Positions 3,962 to 56,700 of a DNA stretch of 64,000 nt are shown here, one piece after another; the stretch's first letter is position 1, and each line of letters starts with the position of its first letter. Made by a program: the position numbers and the translations under genes. The stretch is from Ulva prolifera. Its lineage: Eukaryota > Chlorophyta > Ulvophyceae > Ulvales > Ulvaceae. The stretch lies in contig CM041198.1 in assembly GCA_023078555.1 (NCBI GenBank), positions 11,041,874 to 11,105,873 of the forward strand. The letters run 5' to 3'. The notes below the pieces were generated by a model. It had not been told where the DNA came from, did not search any database, and saw only the letters and a list, made by a program, of their open reading frames with translations.

Positions 3962-6478
3962 ATGGGAGGCGTGTGCTCATGCTGCGGAGCTGGCAGCAAA
4001 ATCGATGAAGAGGGGGAAAGTCATGCGCGTCACAACCAAAGATCGTCAGCCTATGCTGTACCACAAAAGAAGATTTTAGATTTCGGATTCCGGAAAGACT
4101 TTTCATCTCTATTTTCTGTCGGCAGAGAGTTGGGGAAAGGGCAATATGGCACCACATTCGAGTGAGCCCTGATCATCCGTGACAGTTTTCCAGTCTCTGA
4201 CAGAACCTGCACACCAATTTGACGACAGCAGCATAGTATGAACTGACATGACCCAGTGATGCTAATTTATCTCAGGATACGGTAGTTTGTGACAGGTGCA
4301 CTGAAATTGGCTCCAAGGATGAGTACGCTGTGAAGAAGGTTGTAAAAAGCTCTCTAACAGACAAGCAGGCCATTGATGATCTCGAAAGAGAAGTCAAGAT
4401 TTTGACTGTGCTGAAGGGCAGATCGAATATCGTACACTTCTATGGAGCATATGAAGATGAGGAAGCTGTGTACATGGTGCTGGAGTATGTCCAAATTCAT
4501 CTATCTAGTCACAATTGCGAGTGCGCAGGTTTACCCAGCAAGCAGAGCACTTGTGTGCCATTTTCAGGTACTGCCGGGGCGGAGAGTTGTTTCAGCGCCT
4601 GCTAGACAAAGGAAAGTACTCAGAAAGGGACGCTTCTGTTGTGATGCGGCAGATCCTGCAGGCAGTTGCCGATTGCCACACAAACGGTGTCATCCACCGT
4701 GACCTAAAGCCAGAAAACTTCCTGTATGCCAAAGCAGACCCTGATGCTCCACTCAAGGTCACAGATTTTGGCCTGTCTGACTTTTTTGATGCCGCACAAC
4801 ACAAAACATTTGACGATGTAGCTGGAAGTGCATACTATGTTGCACCAGAAGTGCTGCGAAGAAAGTACGGGCCCATGGCAGACCTATGGAGTTGTGGGGT
4901 CATGATGTACATTCTCCTTACTGGTGAAGTGCCGTTTTGGGCTCCCACTGAGGCAGGTACGCTGTGAATCATGACCCTGCCGCTGCAGCGGTAGATCTGC
5001 TGTGAAACACAATTGGTGACGCTTCCAGGCTCAATATGTAGCATGGGACCGCATTTTGGGGTGTACTCATGGGCTTGAAACTTTAAGAACAGCCCTGAGT
5101 CTATGCATACTTTGGTGTCAGTTTGTTCATATCTTCTCCCAGAAAGTGATGTCTTTGACCAGGTATTTTTAAACAAGTTCTTGGTGGTCAGCTAGATCTG
5201 AATGCGGGGCCCTGCAAAAATCTGTCTCAGGAAGCAAAGCAGCTCCTCCTTTCGTTACTGACACGCGATGTAAAGGTCCGCTCTATCGACATGTTTCATT
5301 CATGATTGAAATAGTTATGCTTTCATATCACATAACACAGCACGTTCTGCAAGGCTCTGATTGTACACACCCCATAATTGAAGTGCAGGCACGATATAGC
5401 GCTGCTAGAGCCCTTGCTCATCCATGGATTTCCCAAGATGGTGCAGCACCTGATGCCCCCTTGGATGTTCTTGTCGTACAAAATATACGAAAGTTTTCAG
5501 GCTACAATCGAGTAAAACAGGCAATCTTGGTCGAGATTGCAAAAACTTTTGAAGCAAATGAGATCGTCGATCTGCGACGGCAATTTGCTCTACTTGACAC
5601 AGACGGCAGTGGCACCATTAGTATAGAAGAAATGGTCAATGCGCTCAGTCATCTCAGGACAGGGGAAACCGCCAAAAATGTCTTCAGTGCACAGGACATA
5701 CAGGAGGTGAGAGTCCCAGACTAACAACATTTTATGCATGTGTTTCCCATGCACAAAGCCAGTGCTGCAAATATCACGTGTCAATCCGGAAATCCCAACT
5801 GTGGCGCTGTTGCAGATGATGAGGACACTTGATGTAGATGGAGACGGTATGGTTGACTACATGGTACGTACAGTGCACTAGGTGACACATCACAGCTATG
5901 CTTCTGTCGCAGGTGCGAAGGGAACATTTGAAACGACCATGCGTCCTTAATGTGGATACTGTTGCAGGAATTCGTTGCAGCGTCAATGTCTGCATATCAG
6001 ATGTCGCATGGACTGTTGGCTGGCTCATCAAAGGCCTGGCAAAATCGTGTCAGAGTCGTGTTCGACAAAATAGACGAGGACGGGAATGGGTATGCCCATG
6101 CCCTGCGAACCTCTACGCCCACATCTGCTCAATTGACGCATGTCTGTTATGTGCTGATATGCTGTAGAAGGTCAACAAATTTGTGCAGGTTCATATCCAA
6201 AGATGAGCTTGCCAAGCTGATGGGAGATGATGCATCTGTTCGAGAGGTCATTGCAGAGGCGGACAAAGATGGTGCGATTTGGCGTTTTGACACGAATGAC
6301 TTGTATCCAAAAGCCCTAGCATGGAGTCTCGGAATTGTCCCATGTGCCACTTCGATAGATTCCATTCATCCTTTTAATATTCACATCAGGTGCTGATACA
6401 AATATTGATACAGGGAACGGCCTGATCGACTTCGAAGAATTCCATGTGCTTCTTCGCAATGTCATCCGACGTCGCTGA
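3962..6478 (+). CDS. Calcium-dependent protein kinase (CDPK), nine exons
   Basis: Ser/Thr kinase switched on directly by calcium. Exons as read: 3962-4161, 4296-4484, 4568-4956, 5163-5275, 5389-5706, 5816-5863, 5968-6089, 6189-6271, 6414-6478, giving 508 aa in one frame. The N terminus MGGVCSCC fits N-myristoylation at Gly2 plus palmitoylation of the cysteines, so membrane attachment is likely. Kinase marks in order: glycine loop GKGQYG, lysine in YAVKK, HRDLKPEN, DFGLSDF and APEV. An autoinhibitory junction follows HPW, then four complete EF-hands starting DTDGSGTISIEE, DVDGDGMVDYME, DEDGNGFISKDE and DKDGNGLIDFEE. Two of the EF-hands are assembled across introns, which supports the splice model. 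The last acceptor was placed at 6414 because an alternative AG at about 6390 would break EF-hand 4. CDPKs of this layout occur in plants, green algae and alveolates. Confidence 0.95.
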
Positions 6479-11555: not shown

Positions 11556-13551
11556 ATGTCAAGCTTTGCTGGCACCCCAATCTGGGGCACTCGCAGATTT
11601 GCATTCTTCACTGGGCAGCTCACGCACTCTTTCCGTGTGCATTCTTCGGCTGTGAAGGCGGTGTCCTTAGACGCCATAGTGAATGGTCCTCCAGTTTGGG
11701 ATGCAGCTGCGGCTCCCACCGTCGCCGCCTATGTCCACCTCCCGTTCTGTAAACGCCGTTGCCACTACTGTGACTTTCCGGTGGTAGCCACTGGAGATCC
11801 ACACCGTCAAGGTTTGTCTCTTTTGGCAATCGCAGCCCCCCCCCCCCCCCCCCCCCCCCACACACACAGCCAATCCCGAGCCTGTGGTTCAAGTGAGCCT
11901 GGTAACATGTACAGCTGCTGCAGTGGTACAAGATCGGTTTACAGTGTACATTGACCAACTTTGTAAAGAGATTGGTAAACAGCCAAAATGGAATGCTGAA
12001 CCACTGCAGACCGTGTTTTTTGGAGGTGGCACACCGTACGTTTCTGACCTGCTTTACCATGACAGAATAGCAGTAGAGCTGTGATGAGCATACATAATCT
12101 GGCGTACGTTCATGGCCATCTATCTGAGATGTTCATGTTGTAGGTCATTGATTCCACCCGTGCATCTGACAAAGATCATCAACACATTAGACTCATGTCT
12201 AGGCATTTCCGCTGGTGCAGAAATCACCATGGAGGCCGACCCTGGGACTTTTGATGCCCGAACGCTGAAAGCTTACATGAGTTCTGGAGTGAACCGTTTC
12301 AGCATTGGGGTGCAAGCATTTTCCCAGGTGTGGCCACAAGTGTTGACAATGGTCAATGGGCACTGTTCTGAATTGTATCGGGCACATTAAATGATGATGG
12401 CGACTGTGATGACCGTCCACAATGTGGATGTAGCTGCAAGGCCGTGAACAATTGAGACCTGTGGCATGCAGAATTCGCTCGATCTATGTGGCCGATCCCA
12501 CAATCTGTCTGATGTTCAAGCCGCAATTCAAGCTGTACATGATGCAGAACCCCCTTCGTGGAGCTTGGACTTGATTTCAGGTCTTCCAGGAGTTGATCTG
12601 GGCGATTGGGAAGCATCTATCCAGCAGGCCATCTATTGCAAACCATCGCACTTATCCATCTATGACCTTCAGGTGCACACCTATTTATGCTTTCTATGCC
12701 TGGCTACTTCAGAAATGTAGCACCTATGAATCGTGCGGTGTCTGTGCAATCTGCAACACATTGCAGGTCGAAGCAGGTACGGCTTTTCAGAGATGGCGGG
12801 ACCAAGGGGCGTTGGCAATGCCGAGCGAGACGACGGCGGTAGAGAGTTTGAAAATAGCGAGTGATTGGTTATGTTCCTCCGGATATGAACATTATGAATT
12901 GAGTAGTTTTTCCCAGCCTGGGCACAAATGTGCACATAATATGGTGTGTTTCCGTCTGATCACTTGCTGTATCACTGGCATGGATAGCTCCCGCCCCATC
13001 AGAAAAACAAATATGCTAGCATGATCTCCAATTCAGTGGTCAATTTCGCTTGATCGACTTGTCACCGACCTATGCTGCAGGTTTACTGGCAGGGTTACTC
13101 ATACTACGCATTCGGACTGGGTGCCGCATCGTACTTGAACAGAGTACGAACAACAAGGCCAAGGTCAATGCAAGCATGGCATCAGTACGTAAACGATATT
13201 GAGCTGAATATTCCCAGTAAGACACATGCATCCGGTGAGCCGTCAGCATCGTGTCAAGAGAGGATCTTCGAAGCTATAATGCTGCAACTGAGGTTGACAA
13301 AGGGTATGAACTGTTCATGGTTTGCAAACGGTTTTGGCAGAGATCGTTTGGAGTGTGTCTTACATGCACTTCGAAAGCACGTCCATGAAGGTAGAGTGCT
13401 ATTTGAAGTAGAGAAATCTTCAGCAACGCTCGCCCAAGTTATGGCTGCAGTTGATCGTCAAGATGTGGCACATGCGCGTTTGCGTGATCCAGATGGGTTA
13501 TTATTGTCTAATGATATTATATCTGATGTGTTTGTTGCACTGGAGGAGTAA
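11556..13551 (+). CDS. HemW/RSAD1-type radical SAM protein (coproporphyrinogen III oxidase-like)
   Basis: Radical S-adenosylmethionine enzyme of the HemN/HemW family. HemW members are proposed haem chaperones; the older label is oxygen-independent coproporphyrinogen oxidase-like. Exons: 11556-11811, 11924-12035, 12144-12327, 12472-12672, 12767-12943, 13081-13551, total 466 aa in one frame. The cluster motif is CKRRCHYCDF (CxxxCxxC). It lacks the extra cysteine of true HemN, which favours HemW. Next come FFGGGTPSLIP, MEADPGTF, GVNRFSIGVQAF, LDLISGLPG and YELSSFSQPGHKCAHN, then YWQGYSYYAFGLGAASYL. The first ATG gives about 50 residues rich in Ser, Thr and Arg before the core, consistent with an organelle transit peptide. 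Intron 1 carries a 24-C run at 11836-11859 followed by an AC repeat. Confidence 0.9.
11836..11869 (+). repeat. Poly-C plus AC microsatellite inside HemW intron 1
   Basis: Twenty-four consecutive C residues followed by ACACACACA lie within the first intron, so they do not touch the reading frame. Length is likely to vary between individuals or between sequencing reads. Confidence 0.8.
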
Positions 13552-20133: not shown

Positions 20134-23100
20134 ATGTCTGCAGCAAGTGCGCGTACTGCGGAAGAGGGCACTGTGCCAGCGCTCTTGGTCCCCATTGAAG
20201 ATGCTATAACAAATCGAATGTCTTTTATGGATGCCATGGCCGTGTACATGGGTATGGAGGTGCCAAAGAACAGGGACCCTGTTGCCGAGGCAGAAGCAGC
20301 CTTGGCATTTCTGGAAAGCTTATGGCTCGTGTGCCAGGTTGGCCAGCTACCTTGATCATTCATTACGCTTACATGCTTCTCCCTGACTTCAGTTGCATCT
20401 GTGTAGAGCAGCGAGCAGGAATCCACTGGCGAACCGATCACAGGTCTCAATGATGGCGAGTATGCAAGGGCTGCCAAGGGGGTCCGAAACAAGGCATTTA
20501 AGCCTCTCAGATCAATAATCGACGGAGCAGCATTTGCACGGCCATTGCATGCATGCTCGTCGCAACAACAAGAACAGCTTTCAGGACTTCACACGACCTT
20601 TCGCGCATCGCAGGCAGTAGGCACTTGCATCTCCACAGCGCATGCATCCACAACGTACGTCCACCCGAACAGCCTTCAGCATCACGCAGGGTATGATGTA
20701 GATATATAAATGCACAAGGTGGTCCTAATTGGCATCTATCCATGGGACCTTCCATCCACAGATTCAAGTGCACTCAATTTGCAGTTATGAAGTGGCGCCT
20801 GGCAGCAAGGACCATATGGACCGTGTTTTGGAAGAGGCCATCAAGCTGCTATCCGAGGACGTCGACCAGTGTGTCCAAGATGATAGTCGACCGGAGAGGA
20901 AGCAGCCGCTGGTCAGCCAAATGATCAATAGTGTCTCATCTCACACCAGTAATGACCACATCCCACAGCTTCAAGAATTCATCTCCAAGTGCGTCAACGT
21001 CTCGTGTAATCTTGTCAGCTACAGGCTTGTGTGCAACGCTCTGCGGTTGTGCAGAGAGAAGCAAATTGCGACAGGTTTGATAGCTAGGTCAATGCAGACA
21101 GAGCATAAATCAGAGCAACTCCTCAGCGCAGATGCCGCGAGAGTGGCAGCAGAGCTGCATGTGTCAAATTGTAACAGTGGCGATGCTGTGGCCAAGCTGC
21201 GCCTTGCAGAACAAGCAATCAAAGCCTCCCTGGCAGCGTGCAGAAACGCTGCGAACACACGCAGGCAGAGCAGTGCAGTTTCAAATCTGAAAGCAAGTAT
21301 TGCTCACCTCTTCAAATGCATGAAAGACAGAGCATCCCTGCACCGGTACGGACAAAATTCTGGACATGCACAGTCCTTTGCATGAATTGATTTTTCTCAT
21401 GTGTTGACTAGATAGAAGTCGTTGGTAGGCAAGTGGCAGTGTCTGCTTCTGCTTGGTAATTGGCAGATGTTTTTGCAGCACCAGCACGATTGAAAAGATC
21501 CGACGTGATGCTGCAACTGCAATGTCTCTTTTATCGAGCGGGGTGAATCCATATGAAGTCCAAGGCCAATTTATGAAAACAGCTCAGCAAAAGCGTCACA
21601 ATATCCAGATGGAACAAGTCACTGCATCAGGACGAGAGCAAATAACCAATCGGCTTTTGCGTGAGCAGCATGCGTGGTCGACAGAGATTATAGCTGCGAT
21701 GAAGAAGCGGGTGTGTGCACGTTCTCTTGACACATAAGCCTTGTACCCTCCTGTTAGTAGACTTGCTGCACTCAGCCCGATTATTTCTGGGTGGGGCAGG
21801 AACATGAGCAAGCTTTTCAGCGTGAAATTGGTGGGAGCACTATGGAAGATAAAGTAGACCTTTACATGGCGAAGATCACAGAGGGTCAGAAGAAAATGCT
21901 GAACCCCACAGGCAGACAACCTGTTTTCCCCTCACAAGTGATGGCTAGGACAGAGCTGAAGGGTTCGACTCCGCTGCCAATTTCTCTTGAAGAACCAAAT
22001 CCTACAAATGAGACACATTTAGAGGAAGAAGCATACCCATTGGACCTTGGAAGCACACACTTACATCATGGATCTTGGTCTCTGAATGATGCTGTCAGGG
22101 ATTGCTGCACAGACAAACTGTCCAGCACATGCAAGGTGAATGTCCTGTAGCATAACTAGATACTGGATGGTCGTTCATGTGTGTGGGACCGGTGTTGCAC
22201 ATGCAACCCCTTTTACTGAGAAAGAAAGGCTTATCAAATGGTGCGCAGGACCGCATTACGCTTCATAAGGGCATGGACACCGGCATATTGGATGGATACT
22301 CAGGACCCACAAGATCTCCGCCGTTCATCGCAGATCCACCACAAGTTTTGTTTGAAGACTTTGAACCAGGCTCAACATACTATGCATGTGTCAAGCTCAC
22401 AAATGCTTCAGGGCACAGGGCGTCCTGCAGAGCCCTGGGTACAGCTGCGTGCGTAGCCGATGTGCTTGAAGTGGAGATGCAGCCACCGGGGTTTCTAAGC
22501 TCTGGCATGTCATGCCATATGCAAGTGAAGTTCAATCCGCAACTGAATGATGACATCAACACGCAGATCACTGTTCTCACAAATTGTGGGCGGATCGTGG
22601 TGCCGGTGGCATGCCTGCGCAAGCGAGCAAAACTCGATGTATCAGCATCCTTGATTGAGTTTGGGTCATGCATCATTGGCGAAAAGCGAACTCGCACATT
22701 TGAGCTGCAGAACTCGGGAGCTCTCCAGGTATACTCTAAGCAGTAAATCAAAGTTGAGCTCAGAATGTTCACTGCGGATTCTGCGATTTGCCCGAATGCA
22801 TTGTGCTTTGTGTGTGCTCAGGGGAGGTTCTTCAGGTGCACTGTGCAATGTTCGAAAGGTACATGCGCTGGCCTTGCAGGTGAAGTACTGTGTGAATGGG
22901 TTTGTAAAGATTGGCCAGTCAGGGGACGCAGGATATGACACGGCCGGATTCGGATCTCATCATGACTCGACATCTACAATGAACACTGACAACAATTTTT
23001 TGCAAGTTGGTCCATTCAGAATCAGGCATCAGCAGGGCATGTGTGCTGGACAGACGTCTGTGCACATTCAAGCTGTCTTCAAGCCCCTGGTGGTGGGAGA

Positions 23101-25737
23101 AAGCGAAGCTGTCCTGGAAGTAGCCTGTAAAGCTCTGGGAAGATGCGATGTGACAGATCAGAAGTTCATTGTCTGTGTTCAGGTGCAGCCCCTCCACAAG
23201 ATGAGTGGCTGCCTGTTTGTGACATGCCATAGCACTCTTCGAATTGCCTTGAACCTGCCATAGCATACGTACTGTCTGCAGGGTACTTGCACAGATTTGC
23301 CTGTCAAGGTGTATGCGGAACTTTTGGATTTCAAGACATGCATGGTCGGAAAGTCATACCGTGGACAGATTTGTGTGCAAAACAGTTCGCAGACAGCTTT
23401 GAAGGCGCACATCAGCGCGCCTCTTTGTACAGCTGGCTCACTGTCATTCACTCCTACATGTGGGTTCGTGCAAGGTCTTGGTGAACTGGCCTTTTCCGTC
23501 AACTTCTGTCCAACAGCTGGCACGTTGGAGAGGTGCAGCAAATACGCCTTGGCGGACAGTTTGACCATTGAGGTTCCCATATGTGTGACCGTTCCAGATC
23601 AACCTTATCCGTTGACAGTTTTGGTCAAGGCAGCAATCACTGCGCCTACGCTTCAGTTCAGCTCCCTTGAATACGACTATGGAACTTGCAACGTCAACGA
23701 AGCCATTATGTGTACCGTCATGATAAAGAATCCTACACGTTTGGAACAGACATTTGCTTTTACAGGCATGCCTGCGGATGTTCAGGTGCATAGCAGCACT
23801 GGCGTGATATCTCCAAACAGTCTGGCAGAAGTCAAGGTTATGTTGACCCCCAGAGCTGCAGGGTTTCGAGCCTTCCGCATTCAAGTGCTGTCATTGTGCC
23901 TATCTGTGGCCACACTTTCGTTCACAGCTGTTGTCACAGAGCCAAAGCTGTCACTATCTCATAATCTGGTGCAACTCAGGACCACTGCTCTCTGTGGGAC
24001 CACTACGGCCAGCATCTTGCTAAGAAATCATGCAGCAAGCACACAGCGATTTGCATTCGAGAAGCTTGATTCAAAAGATCTATCGATCACTCCAGCGGTT
24101 GGTTGTATATCAGGTGGTGCCGCATTGAGGTTGCAGATTGATTATTGTCCGAGCGGACCACAGACATCAAAGTACACGGGGCATTTGAGCACACCACACA
24201 CACCAAGTGAAGGCCCAAATTCTCAGCTTGTGGCGAGTGATATTGCAAATAGCAGGATCAGCAGCGCTACCAGGCCCCGTGTATTTCCCATGTCACATTC
24301 ACTTGCTTGCTACTACAGCATTTGTGATCAAGTTTCCGGGAAACCTGCTTGCACAAGTCTAGAAGTTCGTGTTTGTGAGGTGTCACCCAATGCCATGCTG
24401 GTCGGGGCTGATGTAGACCCTCATAGTTCCCGACAAATTTGTGACTTCGGCCTTCTACCAGTGGGAACTTCAACGCAGAAAACTCTGATGTTGAAGAATA
24501 TGAGCAATGATGATCTGGATCTCAAATTCATGCCCACAAATCCCTGTGGTGTATTTGAGCGGGTCACAGCCTGTCCACGGGTTCAAGCCAAGGACTCAGT
24601 AGTTTTGAGATTGCAATTTTCTCCGAGGTCAGGAGGCATTTTCAAGGAATTTCTTCAGGTTGAGGCCGGGCCTCTCTCCTTAATTTTTGAGCTACATGGT
24701 GCTGCTGCGGAGCCAGAGTGGCAGATCAACCTGCTAGATGTCCCCGCCGACCTGGGTGCCATACCCGAAACAGGCTCACAAGCGTTGGTGCAAGTTCGGA
24801 ATCCATGCCAGTTTGCATTGTCTTGTAGCCAGGAAATACGACCACAGTGCGTGTGCAACGTTGGAAATTCTCCATTGTTCATATCACACCCAAGCAGCAT
24901 GTGTGCAGCTTCAGGTGAATTCATGGCCATCAGTATGTATTACCGGCCGGACTGGCAGGTACGGTCCGTCTCACGATGTATACTATCACAGTCCTAAAAG
25001 ACTCTTTGTGTCTTTTGGCTGGAAAGATGCAAACATAAATAAGTGCAGCATTTATAAAGGGGCCACATTTCGACCAGCCCATGGACATTATCAATCCGGG
25101 CGGAACGAAAACAGTTGCACTGCATGGCTCCATGCTAGCAGGGAGCTTGCGGATATGTGGTGGACGGTACTCCTGTGCTGGGCTGAGGTTACCACCTGTA
25201 CTAGCACCAGAGATTTTGCACCTTGATAGCTCGAATGATGGTGTCATTCACTTTCCGATGGTGGCGGGGGGGGCGACTCAATCAATACAGGTTGTGGTGC
25301 GATCCTGTGCAGACGATCTATATCAACTTCTAGGTGTATCACTTGTAGAAGTGGAACATACTCAGTGCTGGCCAACACTTGATTCATGGGCAGTGATTCT
25401 TTTGCCGGACTGGAGGCACACCGATGTGCAGCTGACAAACACAAATTCCGCGAGATCAGCAGGAGATATGCAAGTATCACTCCAGGAACTAACAGCAGAA
25501 CAGCACACAGCTGGATGGCAAGTACAACCAATGGAGTTCTCCATTGGCGCTGGTGCAAGCACAACAGTGACGGTCAGCCTTCAGCTGCCCGATCACACGC
25601 GTGAGGCTTGCGCTGGGGCACTGGGCTATGCAGAGTGCTTCCTGATCAACCTCAGAGGCACTGTCCTTGATGATCGCGCATCTCCACACAAACATGAAGA
25701 ATTTCGTTTGACATTTCGTTCGCAACCAATTACTTGA
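20134..25737 (+). CDS. Large axonemal ASH/Hydin-like protein (CFAP74/DLEC1-class candidate)
   Basis: Probable cilium or flagellum structural protein. Supported exons: 21479-21710, 21800-22135, 22249-22728, 22880-23182, 23282-24958 and 25078-25737, all joining in frame. A further exon covers about 20762-21345; likely 5' exons are 20134-20339 and 20407 to about 20610, where boundaries are uncertain. Total is about 1,350 aa. The N-terminal third is helical and Ala/Gln/Lys-rich, with coiled-coil character (EKIRRDAATAMSLL, VTASGREQITNRLL). From about 22320 on it is a chain of immunoglobulin-like beta domains of ASH (ASPM-SPD2-Hydin) type. Typical phrases are FEDFEPGSTYYACVKLTNAS, IEFGSCIIGEKRTRTFELQN, YDYGTCNVNEAIMCTVMIKN, VQLRTTALCGTTTASILLRN and CDFGLLPVGTSTQKTLMLKN. 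ASH arrays are characteristic of central-pair proteins such as Hydin, CFAP74, CFAP65 and DLEC1; which one this is cannot be settled by eye. Confidence 0.8.
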
Positions 25738-44156: not shown

Positions 44157-44432
44157 GAACAGAACGCGCTGACATGTGTACACCGATGTACGGACAAGTT
44201 AAGCCGGACCAGATATGATGCACTTGGGATTCAGCCAATATGTAAAGGCTTCTGGGTTGTCCAATCAGTGCAGTGAAGCAAAATTTGGCATGGAAGCTGG
44301 CAGCAAATAACACCATAACCTGGTCTGACGTAGTTGATACATTCGGTTCCTGTAGGCGCAAGCCAGTTTGTATGATTACTGCGAACGTTGTGAATTGTTA
44401 CACAAGTGGATCATCATGATCTACCTTGCACA

Positions 44433-45213
44433 TCAATCGTGAATGTGCCTGCATAACACAGAGTTTGAGCAGATGACTGACATTGCCACAGAAACACCGG
44501 GGCAAAAGAGTGTATGCGCACATGCGGGTGCTCTGGAGCATGCGCCTGTAACATTGCAAGTCAAGTTCAAGTGAAACAGTGCACCCTTGAGACAGCCTGC
44601 TGCCAGCTTTACATATAGGTCTGCCACGCGTAGTCTTGTAAGTTGACTACCACTTTGCTCGCTCGCGGCATCAGATGTGGCTGGCTCTCTTGCAGGAGAT
44701 GCAAGTGGCGTCAGCCACCGCAACCTGCTGTCGTCAATGATAAATCGGCCCTGCACGATCATGGCCCATCTTTATTCAGGAGCGTTTCACAGACAGGCAT
44801 TCAGCTCTTCATATGTACGGGAGCGGCGGACTTTATGATTTGTCTTGAGCCCACCCGCATGGTGCCCCAACAGTGCCGTCCAGAATTCTTTGCAGACAAA
44901 CTTCATCTTCGCTAGTGGCTCTTCCATACGAGCCATTCCTTCGGTCAGCCTTGAAGCAAATAGCCGTAACGATCTCCTTGATTGGCATGGGTATCGGACA
45001 GACATGCGATAAACGAGAATGCGAGGATCACCTTTCAGCAAGTTGGAAACCAATCCGGAACCCCATTGTCTCCACTGCATGAACAGCCGCAACAAGATCT
45101 TGACCGACAGCATAATATCTGACCATCTCAAGCACCAGATAGTCAACTGTGCAATTCACTGAGTCCTGCTCCTCCACCGGCGGTCTAGCGTTGGCCCCGA
45201 AGACACTGGGCAT
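44433..45213 (-). CDS. TRAPPC6: TRAPP complex subunit TRAPPC6 (Trs33)
   Basis: Core subunit of the TRAPP vesicle-tethering complexes at ER-Golgi membranes, where it pairs with TRAPPC3 (Bet3). Minus-strand exons: 45032-45213, 44832-44949 and 44433-44750, about 205 aa. Diagnostic stretches: VDYLVLEMVRYY, VETMGFRIGFQLAER, AKMKFVCKEFWTALL (the MKFICKDFW signature), LKTNHKGRFIIDDSRLRWL and KLAAGCLKGALFHLNLTCNV. The start at 45213 is the first ATG; the longer upstream frame begins with TTG. The extreme C terminus after NLTCNVTGACSRAPACAHT departs from relatives, which end soon after a PACxFxV strand, so a last splice may have been missed. It is divergent from TRAPPC3. Confidence 0.9.
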
Positions 45214-45674
45214 AGCAAGCACGAGATGGCCGGTGGCACGACACGCTCCAGATAGGATGCTTCCTCCGTGCCACACAGTGTGCAAGTCACCGTTTGGTTT
45301 GTATTATGTGCGTGTCCTGCAACGCCGTGTACGTAGCATGTATAGCAAAGATAAACTCTAGGAAAAGGACAAGCAATGCTGCCAATGATTTCAGGCGTAA
45401 ATCCAGGCACTCAGGTCAATATGTCTCCAACACACGATGTTTCATAAGCCTGACTTCAGCAGAGAGCTCACACGCTGTGTGCGTCACCACCGCCACAGTT
45501 TCATCGCGTTGAAAATTTGCAAGATCGAGTGATCGCCGCCTGAGCATGACTTGAGAAGCAAGACGGTACTTCAGGCGTGGCTGTTCATAATGCACAATGC
45601 TCCGCACATGCGGATAGACTGCGTAACGATTCCCGCCGTTTCATTCCGTTCTGTCAAGGGAAAGCTCTGCAGGA
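45214..45674. promoter_or_regulatory. Shared intergenic region between TRAPPC6 and TRAPPC3 start codons
   Basis: 461 bp lie between the two ATGs, which point away from each other. No other gene is seen inside, so both promoters must be here or overlap. No TATA box is obvious. A bidirectional promoter is inferred from arrangement only. Confidence 0.5.
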
Positions 45675-46196
45675 ATGGAAGCAGAAGCGAATGCAGAGGT
45701 TCTTGCGCTGACTTATGGTGCTGTTGTTCGACAACTCTTGGCTGATCTCAACGATGTAGACAGCGTCAATTCGCAGCTGAAGCAGATGGGAAACAATGTT
45801 GGCATGCGCTTGATCGAAGAGTTTCTAGCAAAAACTGGGATAGACAGATGTAGTAACTTTCAGCAGACTTGCAAAACCATCGCGGAAAGGGCATTTCCAA
45901 TGTTTCTGGGCGTTCGGGGCAGCTCCAGAGCTGTTGAGAGTGGGGAAAGAGAGGCGATTATAATGCTGAAAGAATTACCACTTGCAGAATTTGTTGAAAT
46001 ACCTGCACACTATCAGGGCTTGCAGTATTGCAACATGGTGGCTGGGGTCATCGAAGGTGCACTGGCAAGAGTCAACATGACAGTGAAGTGTGACATTGTA
46101 AAGGATGTTTTGACAGGTGCGCAGGAATACGAGTTTCTGCTCAAGCTGTTGCAAGATGTCCCAGCAGAACAATATCCGTTCGGTGAAAATGATTGA
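45675..46196 (+). CDS. TRAPPC3: TRAPP complex subunit TRAPPC3 (Bet3), intronless
   Basis: Central TRAPP subunit, which forms a heterodimer with TRAPPC6 and contacts membranes and the Rab1/Ypt1 exchange site. A single exon of 173 aa: ALTYGAVVRQLLADL, QLKQMGNNVGMRLIEEFLAK, CKTIAERAFPMFLGV, LAEFVEIPAHYQGLQYCNMV and GVIEGALARVNMTVKCDIVK match the family from end to end (human protein about 180 aa). The cysteine that is S-acylated in animals is present in IDRCSNF. It is the only intact host gene in the window without an intron, which could mean a retrocopy or simple intron loss. Stop is TGA. Confidence 0.95.
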   Translation: MEAEANAEVLALTYGAVVRQLLADLNDVDSVNSQLKQMGNNVGMRLIEEFLAKTGIDRCSNFQQTCKTIAERAFPMFLGVRGSSRAVESGEREAIIMLKELPLAEFVEIPAHYQGLQYCNMVAGVIEGALARVNMTVKCDIVKDVLTGAQEYEFLLKLLQDVPAEQYPFGEND

Positions 46197-48739: not shown

Positions 48740-49096
48740 CCTACTGTCACAATGCATGAGCTTGCGGGCAGCAATGTGGTGACAGGTGCATCCATGCACG
48801 GACGATCCGCGGATGAAGTGTAGGGGTAAGCCGCCAGCCAGGATTGACTCGATGTAGTGAGGGAGATCCTGCGAGGGTTTCCCGGCGTAACCTTGAGTGT
48901 TCAGTGTGCATATAAGGATGTGCACACTGAGATCTGTAACCATTCTTCTTACTGTCTCACGGTATTAGCATCTTCCCATCAGTGTTCCCTCGGTTCTACC
49001 TCTGTGCGCAGAAGGTATGGAACACTGGCCTCCTGACCTGACCTGACGTAAGACTGCGCGTCTGACCTGAGCGAATGAAGCATTTCTGACACCTAC
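48740..49096 (+). mobile_element. Solo LTR of the Copia family with 5-bp target duplication
   Basis: The LTR spans 48745-49091, from TGTCACAATGCATG to TTTCTGACA, and is flanked by the perfect direct repeat CCTAC (48740-48744 and 49092-49096). Internal landmarks shared with the other copies are GGATCCGCGGAT-like sequence, GTGCATATAAGGATGTGCAC (a likely promoter TATA), and CTACCTCTGTGCGCAG. The intact duplication shows that the full element inserted here and later recombined to one LTR. Confidence 0.95.
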
Positions 49097-49561
49097 AAGG
49101 CAATTACAGGAAATCATTAATTGTTTAATTAATTGTTAATTTGACACCGAAAAAGCTGATTAGTTTAACGTAAACGATGTTAATTCCGATAATTTGGTTA
49201 ACAGATATTTGACAGTGTAATTATACTTTGTAATTAAGTGTTAATCTGAGACATGGAGAATGTAATCAGCAGCCGTATACCGAACACAACGTGTACACAG
49301 AGAATGCAGGGCTGGACCAAGCAGTGGAACTTCACTGTGGACAGTATGAGTGAACCATCCTTAAATTGGTTGCTACTGGGGATGTCAAGACTACATATAT
49401 GGGCCTTGCGAGATTACAATCGTTCAACAAGAAGCTATGCAATTATAAGGGACTTGACCACAAATTTCGCTACTAATCGCCTCAACTTCTTGCCAGATCG
49501 CAAGCCTTCGATTCGGGCCAGTGACTCAGTTTTAGGTCCACAGCATGGCACGGGGTGAGTC
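49097..49561. other. AT-rich spacer between solo LTR and 5' LTR
   Basis: 49100-49250 is AT-rich with repeated TTAAT and TAATTA motifs, resembling 48030-48230 across the solo LTR. A 101-codon frame from 49253 is open into the next LTR edge but matches nothing known. Confidence 0.4.
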
Positions 49562-49914
49562 TGTCACAATGCATGGGCCTGCGGGCAGCAGTGTGGTGAC
49601 AGGTGCACCCATGCACGGACGATCCGCGGATCCAGTGCAGGGGTAAGCCGCCAGCAGGATTGTCTTGATGTAGCGAGAGAGATCCCGCGAGGGTTTCCCG
49701 CCGTAACCTTGAGTGATGTGTGTTCAGTGTGCATATAGGCATGTGCACACTGAGATCTGTAACCATTCTCCTTACTGTTTCCCGGTACTAGCACTCTCCT
49801 CTAGCATCTCTCGGTTCTACCTCTGTGCGCAGCAGGTATGAGATGCTGGCTGCCCTGACCTGACCTGAATAAGGACTGCGCGTCCGACCTGCACAACGAA
49901 TAGCCTTTCTGACA
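49562..49914 (+). mobile_element. 5' LTR of a Copia-family element
   Basis: Bounded by TGTCACAATGCATGGGCC and GCCTTTCTGACA, about 353 bp. It is directly followed by a primer-binding site and a gag frame in the same orientation, which identifies it as a 5' LTR. GTGCATATAGGCATGTGCAC is the probable promoter. Confidence 0.92.
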
Positions 49915-52176: not shown

Positions 52177-55100
52177 CTAAGTCTCCACTAGCTGGAGTTT
52201 ATTACGAACTTCCTGCAAGGCAGGTCCGGGCAGCACTTTGGTAAACACATCTGCTAACTGATCAACAGTGTCCACCCATGCTACCTTAAGTTCGTCCATC
52301 TGGACATATTCCCGCACTCGCAAGTGGCGCACACGAATGTGCTTGGATCTGTCAGTGGACACAGCATTCACCGCCAAAATATTGGCACTCTTATTATCAC
52401 CCCGCAGAGTCGGCTTATGTGGGACAAGCTTCACATCGAGAAGCAATTGCTTCATCCACATGAGCTCGTTGGCTGTTGCGCTCATCGCAATGAGCTCAGC
52501 CTCTGTTGTATCCCCAGCCACTATACTCTGCTTCTTCGAACGCCAGAGAACACAGTTCCCATACACCCGAACAATCATACCAGACACACTCTTTAGATCC
52601 GCAGAATTCGCAAAATCTGCATCTGAAAAAGCCTCTAGTAAACACCCATGTCCCTCAGAGCCTATAAATTTTATTCCTAGATTTTTCGTGGACTGCAGAT
52701 ATCTCAGAACATGTTGCACGGCAGACCAATGTTCCTTCAGACTACTAGACATGTGCCGGGCCAGGGCATGTGCCACATAGCTCAGGTCAGGTCGTGTCAC
52801 TCCTGCAATATACTGGATGCTTCCTACATCACTCATGAACCTGGAATGCTCAGCAGCACTGGCTTTCTCCAGGTCAGGGTGCTCTTTCACACTCCTTAGT
52901 TGTTGCCGCGGCACTAATGGAGTGGGAGATTTACGACAGTCAGACATACTGTACTTGTCCAGCAAGTTCTGGATTTTGTTACGTTGTGTCTTTGTGATTG
53001 TTTTGGCCTTTCGATCACGCGTGATCTCAGTGCCAAGTGCCCAAGACAGGTCACCTAGATCTCTGCCTTCAAATTTCGTGAGAATGACACTGATGATGTC
53101 TTGCAGCCCCGCAGAGCAACTGAAAATGAACAAATCGTCCACCCACAGAAAAATAAAGCAGCGACTGGTTTTACTGACATACAGTCCGGGATCACTCTGT
53201 GCGCACACAAATCCCAGTTCAGCCAAGACCTTTACTAAAGCTTTATGCCACTCGCGAGCGGCTTGCTTCAGGCCATACAGAGTCTTATGCAATTTCCATA
53301 CACGTGCTGTCCCGTCTGTAAAGTACGGGGGCTGTTCAACGAAAACCTCTTCCTACAGGTCACCGTTCAGAAAAGCACATTGCATATCTATATGCCTAAT
53401 CTCCAAATCCTCCTGAGCAGCTATAGACAGCAACACACGCAGTGTCGCATAACTACCGACAGGGGACCAGGTCTCAAAAAAGTCTACTCCTTCTACCTGA
53501 GAAAAACCACGAGCTACATATCGTGCCTTGTACCGCTGAATCTCACCAGCGGGTCCGCGCTTGATCTTGAACACCCACTTGCCCGAGATAGCTTTCTTAC
53601 CCGCAGGCAGATAGCACAACATAAAAGTCCCGTGCTCACCCAGTGCTTCCACCTCCTCCTGCATGGCATGCAGCCATGCATCCCTGTCTGGACCCGCGAG
53701 TCCTTCCTTCATAGAAGGCAGATCAGGGTCGGAAAGCTTCTGCTTCCTGGCGGCAGCTGCTCTGCGCGACCCACGACGCTGAGCATTCTGCTGCTCACCA
53801 GACTCCACATGCTGAGGCTTCAGGCCTGCACAGGACACTCCACAGTCAGCCGCGGCTGATGTGTCCTGATCGCAAGTTGAAACATCAATAGCAGCTACAA
53901 CTGTCTCACTGCTAGCAATGTCAGAGCCCGCAGGCTCATGCATTTGTACAGCTGCTACATCCGCAGCCAATGGAACAAGGCGTCTGCGTACAAGAGGATT
54001 GATTTTAATACGTGGTAAGGCAGCTGGAATGGCCCTCACCTCGTCAGGCAAATCAACCCCAACTGCGGCTGAGGGGTCCGGATCCTCTCCCCCTAATTCG
54101 GACCCGGTCTCCACCTCATCTGGCTCGTCCTCCCAGAAGGGCCTCAGCGCCTCAGCTCCTCGCAAGGGCTGAGCAACTGCCCCCGCGCCAGATGCTGAGG
54201 CCGCTGCCGAATTACTCCCGGAACGGACCCGCTGAGCCTCCAGATTCTGATGGGCCGCAGCCCTTTCATCATCTGAGACGGTGTAGTCCATGCGCTGTTC
54301 GTCATCGTCGTCATAGATGCCAGGACCATCGTCATCCTCATCCATGTCGTCATCAGACGCACTGACAGACACTCGAACAGGAAACGCAGCTTCTACACCA
54401 GGGTCGTGCAGTGCAGCGTTGCGCGTGACAACATACTGCGCAGTGCGAGAGGGCATGGCGACAGGGTGATGCACTTCACCACGCACACGAGAGGGGACAG
54501 GGACGGCAGGGTGAGCCGCAGCTCTGGATATCGCACGCGTGCGATGCAAAGCTGTTCTGGCTGTTTCCGGTGTGGCCCGAGCAGGGTCACGTCGGATGAT
54601 CTCCGCAGAGGAGCCAGCTCCGAATTGCGGAGAGTACACAGCAGGACCGGGCTCCGGATTATCCTGCCTGAAAGTCATTTCCATGACAGGAACCCTACCA
54701 TGACCCGGGGGGGTGTGAAGCTGGTCACGCAGACGGCGCAACACTCCCCCGTCATACGTGTGTTCTGCCGCGAAAGGAGGAACATCAGCGTCAGTGACAC
54801 GCTCACCCTCATCGTCCCCCTCGAAGGCAACTGTATAGGAGTTCGCAAACTCCTCAGGCTCCCTCTTGTCCACAACGGCGGACGCATCGTACTTTCGTAC
54901 GTGGTGGATCATCTGATCCGCAGTGCACACAACCTGGCGCACAACAAAAACCCTACCCCCAGGAACATCCTGGGCGAACACACGTTGCATGCCGGGGCCC
55001 AGCCCAGCCCCGACCCAGTATGCAAGGTCACCCGTTTAGGACAACTTCCGCAGCTTGTCATGCCTAGGGTATGCATACACTTCAACCCCCCACGGACGCT

Positions 55101-56700
55101 GCTGCCGCAGCAGATCTTGGAACACCTCAACGGAGGTGTCTCTGAAAAAAGACATATAAGGAATGATGTCCTTATCACAAGACCGCACTAAAAACTCATC
55201 TAACTCTGTCGTCGCAAGCAACTTGTACTTGCGTTTTTCCTCTTCCCTCAACTTATCGCGCTCGGCCTTTTTCATGCGCTTGCCCTTCCCCAAACTCCGC
55301 TCAGCTTCGTCAACATCCGCAGATGCGTTGACAGCATGCTGACCTTTCTGAGATTTGAGGATACTCGCCAACTTGTCATGGTACAGCGCCGAGGACGGCG
55401 TGAAATTGTGACCATGTACAACGCTGGCGAGGCATTCTATCCACAGGAATAGAGGCAGGCCGCTCGCAAGCAGCACAGCACGGAGTGACTCAAAGGCAAC
55501 TCCGATCCTCCGTTCGATCATGCCATTACAGCGATGAGCGGCTGTGGGGGTCAAGCGGTGAGTGATGCCACGACGCTGGAGGTAGAGTTTTAAGGCCTCG
55601 ACCATGAACTCTCCCCCTTTGTCGGTGTGTAGGATGCGCACACCCGGTTCACCTGGCTTCACCACATTCACCCGAATGCGTTCAATAATATAAGAGATCA
55701 TGGCCGCAGCCTCACTCTTTTTGTGCAGACCGACCACGAAAGTATAGCGGGTAAAAGCACACATCACAAACAAAACATATTTCACACCACCAATTCCTAC
55801 CGGAGAGACAGGACCAGCTAGGTCGGCATGCAGTTGCTCACCAGGGAACTTGGCCTGGCCCATGAGCTCACGATCGTTGGCAGAAAATTTGCCCGCAGGC
55901 ACTTTGCCAATTCTGCAGACATGACAACGATTCCCCATTGGCTCGGAATCAACTCTTAAATTTAAATCACCATAAAACTCAGCGTTGGCTTGCATACGCT
56001 TCAGGACCCACGTTGACTGGTGAAAAGACAAGTGTGCAAGAAAAGCAGGCTCCAGCAAGTATGCATCATGTGGGACCTCAGATCCCCCAGCATTGGGTCG
56101 CTGCAGGTCAACGGCCGCGACCGCCACATGATGCCATTGCTGTTGGTCATCAATAACTGAGGTTGGGCTGCTCTGGTTAGACCAGACTACCCCCCTATTG
56201 ACCGGCGCACCGACGAGAATAGGTTTGGTCTCTACTGCCATTTTGAAAGCAAAAACAGGGTGACCATCTACATCAAGTCCCTGATACTTGACGTCGTCCT
56301 CTACGTCGGTAGCCATATCACCCAAACCAGGAACATACAACACATTTTTACGCGTATCTAGGAACATCTGCTCATGTCTAAGACCCATTGTACTGAGCAG
56401 GTTGTACGGACATTCAGGCGCGTAGTAAACACCAGGGATTTCCACATCTAACGGATGCGTGTTCCCACACTTGTCTACATAAGTACCCAGGTTCACCAGA
56501 ATGGTTCCCCTGCCCATGATAGAAAGCTGCCCTGGTCCCGCGAGATTGGCAACTTTCTGACACGGGCCGTACTCAGTGAACATTTCACGATTGCCTACGA
56601 TATGCATGTCCGACCCACTATCAACAATGATGTTCCATGGCAGAGACGCGTCTGGTTGGGAATACTTTTCAGGCATCTCAACAGTGCAAACATCTTTGGC
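52177..56700 (-). pseudogene. Ty1/Copia pol (protease-integrase-RT-RNase H) with two in-frame stops
   Basis: Minus-strand order is protease (IIVDSGSDMHIVGN, about 56630), GAG-pre-integrase zinc site (HLSFH ... CHVCRIGK), integrase (LHADLAGP, ILHTDKGGEF, NGMIERR, the D-D-E triad), reverse transcriptase (GKWVFKIKRGPAGEIQRYKA, FSQVEGVDFFETWSPV, HKTLYGLKQAAREWHKAL, FLWVDDLFIF) and RNase H (LRGDNKSANILAVN, DQLADVFTKVLPGP). Integrase before reverse transcriptase identifies Ty1/Copia. Two stops interrupt an otherwise open frame: TAA at 55036-55038 between integrase and RT, and TAG at 53353-53355 inside RT just after CAFLNGDL. The frame is otherwise long and intact, so inactivation looks recent. Stop is TAG at 52177. 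Confidence 0.95.

Follow-up and report, generated by a model that had tools for sequence, protein, structure and literature searches.

A head-to-head gene pair for TRAPPC6 and TRAPPC3, predicted partner subunits of the TRAPP complex

The TRAPP core, as described in a passage of PMC8204870, contains two TRAPPC3 and one TRAPPC6, with one TRAPPC3 bound by TRAPPC5 and the other by TRAPPC6; part of PMC8204860 refers to both Bet3 subunits. The TRAPPC3–TRAPPC6 (Bet3–Trs33) heterodimer is known from the structures PDB 2cfh, 2c0j and 2j3t, which contain both chains. Head-to-head gene pairs of plants, yeast and animals lie on opposite strands and diverge across a gap below 1 kb (definition in a passage of PMC2648788). 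In yeast, the frequency of such genes roughly equals the expected one according to a section of PMC3303733, and human neighbouring genes are, in a passage of PMC5572396, often co-expressed and seldom related in function. In mouse, members of one complex were found to be chromosomally linked above chance (an excerpt of PMC6762216).

We analysed a window of 64,000 nucleotides (C3:11041874-11105873), in which an initial annotation had noticed TRAPPC6 and TRAPPC3 as divergent neighbours. As in the pairs described above, the two genes lie on opposite strands, and 461 bp separate their diverging ATGs (Table 1), exactly as had been annotated. The binding of the two proteins to each other, also part of that annotation, rests on the published structures. 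In our preferred reading, to which we give a probability of roughly 0.6, both are ordinary single-copy TRAPP genes in a divergent pair that is specific to this lineage, arose through rearrangement and perhaps confers a weak benefit. Both proteins would then most likely act in the core of TRAPP, a Rab-exchange complex, as they do in other eukaryotes.

Table 1. Features of the TRAPPC6–TRAPPC3 locus (positions within the window)
Feature	Position	Strand	Remarks
TRAPPC6 gene	44414..45213	-	four exons, 187 aa, inferred splicing; PF04051 2.8e-23; PDB TRAPPC6B 1.5e-20
TRAPPC6 exon 1	45032..45213	-	start codon at 45213
TRAPPC6 intron 1	44950..45031	-	82 nt, GT-AG
TRAPPC6 exon 2	44832..44949	-	carries MKFVCKEFW motif
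TRAPPC6 intron 2	44751..44831	-	81 nt, GT-AG
TRAPPC6 exon 3	44522..44750	-	
TRAPPC6 intron 3	44449..44521	-	73 nt, GT-AG; missing from the initial annotation
TRAPPC6 exon 4 with stop TGA	44414..44448	-	TFTIDVQGRS; aligned up to residue 156 of TRAPPC6B chain
Divergent intergenic region, candidate shared promoter	45214..45674		461 bp
TRAPPC3 (Bet3) gene	45675..46196	+	single exon, 173 aa, stop TGA; Pfam PF04051 2.6e-30

Gene models of TRAPPC3 and TRAPPC6

The plus-strand frame matched 14 PDB sequences. Eleven of these are named TRAPPC3 or Bet3 and two only 'Trafficking protein particle complex subunit'; the E-values of this group of 13 range from 5e-34 to 8.4e-28, and the remaining match is a TRAPPC5 at 7.9e-5. 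The best match, a TRAPPC3, covers residues 5-170. By its best matches, the predicted product is TRAPPC3 rather than TRAPPC5 or TRAPPC6, in agreement with the initial annotation. Among the four PF04051 matches in the genome, TRAPPC3 alone covers most of the profile within one frame, and its gene carries no introns. In the alignment with the TRAPPC3 chain of PDB, the Cys of GRCHDF is retained in this protein, within DRCSNF; we take this to be the acylated (palmitoylated) Cys of TRAPPC3, and acylation is predicted here.

The introns of the minus-strand gene were inferred from GT-AG boundaries, reading frame and homology. Previously, TRAPPC6 had been placed at 44433-45213 as three exons joined by GT-AG splicing, with a product of 205 residues and the signatures MKFVCKEFW and LKTNHKGRF. 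Identity, strand and start were retained in our model, as were both signatures, the second of which is formed at the splice junction of exons 2 and 3. The end had to be revised, as 44433 is the stop of the frame read without the last splice. In the best five PDB matches, the last 21-27 residues of the 205-residue version lie outside the aligned part. We drew 63 candidate GT-AG introns of 50-151 nt from the end of exon 3 and scored each by an ungapped BLOSUM62 match to the 25-residue C-terminus of TRAPPC6B. The intron 44521-44449 scored 43, compared to 31 for the runner-up and 27 without an intron. With this intron, the tail of the product becomes ...PACTFTIDVQGRS, which aligns with ...PACKFQVMIQ of TRAPPC6B. 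Its addition raised the best PDB score from 72.2 to 77.1 bits and the Pfam TRAPP score from 78.1 to 82.8 bits, and extended profile coverage from 2-135 to 2-154 of 154 positions. Due to these score gains and the full coverage, TRAPPC6 most likely consists of four exons and ends 19 bp past the annotated coordinate. In the predicted splicing, intron 3 restores a normal TRAPPC6 C-terminus.

The spliced product matched six PDB sequences, four of them named TRAPPC6A, 6B or subunit 33. Another, 2c0j_B, bears the PDB name R32611_2 and is called TRAPPC6 in a passage of PMC8204860, and 7b6d_B is named by its clone only. On this gene model, the predicted product is TRAPPC6 with a full TRAPP domain.

Both proteins carry the same TRAPP domain, as would be expected if the pair were a never-separated remnant of the ancient inverted duplication that gave rise to TRAPPC3 and TRAPPC6. 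However, the two barely align with each other (9 of 25 residues identical, E 0.002, in a single comparison), and each matches its respective orthologues from animals and yeast, so that the split between them long predates this genome. The two genes presumably lie on different chromosomes in yeast, human and Arabidopsis, which also speaks against this origin. We consider it hardly conceivable.

The intergenic region and its surroundings

The 461-bp gap matched the genome only at its own position and is therefore single-copy. Its GC content is 51% and its CpG observed/expected ratio 0.97, compared to 0.66 across the coding part of TRAPPC3 and 0.71 across the TRAPPC6 gene; since the stretch after TRAPPC3 reaches 1.02, the value of the gap does not constitute a promoter signature. 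The gap contains one CCAAT, no TATAAA and short, imperfect repeats, and no distinctive shared promoter element was found in it. A bacterial promoter scan found nothing, though its model does not apply to a eukaryote. Judged by the start codons, TRAPPC6 and TRAPPC3 form a bidirectional pair (<1 kb), provided that the transcription starts fall inside the gap. One promoter common to both genes is allowed by the layout and compatible with the spacing, and thus a possible candidate.

It has been proposed for this locus that selection has maintained the gap as one bidirectional promoter, by which both binding partners would be produced jointly. The divergence of the starts across a short stretch of single-copy DNA is consistent with this, and Arabidopsis bidirectional pairs are, in a passage of PMC2648788, frequently co-expressed and tend towards a common function. 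On the other hand, linked pairs of mouse were no closer than random, as stated in part of PMC6762216. The argument from balance, which was the interpretation of the initial annotation, is weakened because the core holds two TRAPPC3 for one TRAPPC6 and because the TRAPPC5 gene lies on another contig (C8); the gene identities and the divergent layout given there were confirmed. In the assembled complex, as presumed here, the two TRAPPC3 would occupy opposite sides of the core, one paired with TRAPPC6 and the second with TRAPPC5. Selection is not implausible in view of the shared function of Arabidopsis pairs and the linkage of complex members in mouse, and we regard a selected bidirectional promoter as a tentative, somewhat unlikely explanation. 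In the preferred reading of a chance or weakly selected pair, arisen by rearrangement in this lineage, the two genes may share one open promoter or chromatin region with a weak benefit for co-expression or noise, and a one-to-one dosage device would be unnecessary to account for their adjacency.

Several other features were observed in the window. A protein kinase exon lies at 4515-4967 (plus strand; Pfam 4.1e-42) and appears CDPK-like by eye, and a weak match to the HemN C-terminal domain was found at 13072-13551 (plus strand; 1.6e-5, barely above the cut-off). The frame at 23297-24997 (plus strand) encodes Ig domains of the CFAP74/CFAP65/HYDIN type, which belong to a cilia protein; it is probably part of a longer gene at 22177-25737, an extent judged by eye, and suggests that a flagellated stage probably occurs in this organism. 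On the minus strand, 52180-53292 and 55039-56676 hold retroelement pieces with RVT_2, integrase core and Pol beta-barrel domains, which we take to be of copia type. Direct repeats of ~330 bp at 48744-49069 and 49561-49891, ~820 bp apart (families D1-D3, D5 and D7, 86-93% alike), are perhaps the ends of a small mobile element.

Other TRAPP genes and the chance of adjacency

The assembly searched comprises 88.9 Mb in 44 contigs, which need not equal whole chromosomes. No telomere tract of the TTAGGG, TTTAGGG or TTTTAGGG type matched in the assembly and rbcL was not found there, so organelle sequences and perhaps chromosome ends are missing from it, or the telomere repeat differs from these types. 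An algal identity is suggested by the initial annotation and by weak matches, below the cut-off, to DUF1995, a family with a link to the plastid. Eight TRAPP genes were mapped, with TRAPPC10, 11, 12 and 13 outside the survey. The four PF04051 matches correspond to three genes, TRAPPC3, TRAPPC6 and TRAPPC5, the first two found in one copy each, if the two TRAPP-domain pieces at C8:2304412-2305150 are taken as one gene. This gene is taken as TRAPPC5, since its second piece matched seven PDB sequences (E 0.014-0.09), among them four of subunit 31 and one TRAPPC5, with two named only ZGC 92866. TRAPPC4 lies at C3:11203519-11203982, ~115 kb from the pair on the same contig (43 bits to chains named TRAPPC4 vs 22 bits to TRAPPC1), and TRAPPC1 at C6:3986552-3986776 (46 bits to TRAPPC1 vs 20 bits to TRAPPC4). 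A Sedlin-type gene at C10:1052108-1052719 is composed of weak pieces (best E 0.0066) that are jointly over the cut-off. The genome search for Sedlin at the default threshold (E 0.001) found nothing; this gene was seen only with a maximum E-value of 10, where a bacterial control also matched, below the cut-off.

A TRAPPC8-type gene was located at C8:371804-373021 (PF12739) and a TRAPPC9-like fragment, under the family cut-off, at C5:255154-255342 (PF08626). A further PF08626 match at C8:374149-374502, on the same strand as the PF12739 match, was considered as part of a second TRAPP cluster (TRAPPC8/TRAPPC9), which we rejected: it most likely falls within the C-terminal portion of that TRAPPC8 gene, judging by the length that we assume for TRAPPC8. 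For the PF08626 frames on C8 and C5, no PDB match was found.

For each of TRAPPC1, TRAPPC4 and TRAPPC5, two open frames together make up the domain. Together with the three modelled introns of TRAPPC6, the intronless TRAPPC3 and the presence of retroelement pieces in the same window, this could suggest that TRAPPC3 is a retrogene, an mRNA-derived copy that was inserted beside TRAPPC6 and replaced the original. But a 522-bp gene without introns is unremarkable, no poly-A tract was seen between positions 46196 and 47500, and no second TRAPPC3 copy occurs among the four PF04051 matches. We therefore consider a retrogene very improbable.

The preferred reading of ordinary genes in a chance or weakly selected pair has to be set against the small probability of adjacency and the distance of TRAPPC4. 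For an assumed range of 16,000-8,000 genes, two named genes are adjacent with a probability of 1.3-2.5 in 10,000; for any two of the eight mapped TRAPP genes, this probability is 0.35-0.7%. Under uniform placement, the probability that some two of the eight lie within 2 kb is 0.0013. The proximity of TRAPPC4 favours linkage: given the pair, at least one of the six other mapped genes would lie within 115.5 kb in ~1.5% of uniform placements, and some three of the eight within 120 kb with a probability of ~0.0003, a threshold picked post hoc. These figures understate chance, because of the clustering of genes, the post hoc choice of the 120-kb threshold and the many gene pairs scanned in the initial annotation, and adjacency alone is therefore insufficient to establish selection.

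Selection or shared chromatin might hold TRAPPC6, TRAPPC3 and TRAPPC4 together within 118 kb on C3, as their spacing would suggest. Yet the distance of TRAPPC4 was noticed post hoc, 115 kb can hold many genes, and contigs C5, C6, C8 and C10, not C3, carry TRAPPC1, TRAPPC5, TRAPPC8, the Sedlin-type gene and the TRAPPC9-like fragment; such a regional cluster appears quite improbable to us. That this lineage gathered TRAPP core genes by selection, with TRAPPC6 and TRAPPC3 under one promoter and TRAPPC4 in the same 118 kb, is a doubtful proposition. If true, this would mean that two directly contacting subunits of a housekeeping complex are co-transcribed, a rarity among eukaryotes.

To look at divergent pairs more generally, a codon-usage scan was applied to 19 stretches and the window; it is crude, with a training set of four segments, and too weak to yield a genome-wide rate of close head-to-head pairs. 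Among 15 round-coordinate stretches, only L024, L029 and L032 contained candidates, and two of the candidates matched Pfam families (NAD kinase and RRM).

Comparison with known TRAPP proteins and head-to-head pairs

Each of the two proteins matches its family across nearly the whole domain, in line with the known heterodimer structures. Compared to the TRAPPC6B chain, the predicted TRAPPC6 begins ~11 residues earlier and has ~17 additional residues ahead of the last third of the domain. A close-relative scan of prokaryote and virus contigs gave no TRAPPC3 relative (96 + 5 pattern stretches), as expected for such collections. In the literature searched, no paper was found that brings up TRAPPC6 and TRAPPC3 in a head-to-head context, and none of the titles listed was about linkage of TRAPP genes, which is not proof of absence in print.

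According to work cited in a passage of PMC5572396, two subunits of the same complex are not encoded by any bidirectional pair of yeast or human, and the TRAPPC6–TRAPPC3 pair is for this reason unusual in kind. The initial annotation had called linkage of partners uncommon, a view that agrees with this passage; the mouse complexes of PMC6762216, in the part cited above, go against it. Head-to-head pairs are common, whereas pairs with directly binding products have been reported as rare. Divergent yeast histone genes and the collagen IV genes are exceptions, which suggest that co-complex pairs do exist. The arrangement described here is real and unusual for a pair of partners, and nothing in our data marks it as more than coincidence. 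Without conservation, the pair is a curiosity; if conserved, it would offer a clean natural test of whether complex assembly or expression noise alone shapes eukaryotic gene order. In strand, orientation and spacing it resembles the head-to-head pairs of plants, yeast and animals, and it differs from those elsewhere in that the products of its two genes would bind each other directly.
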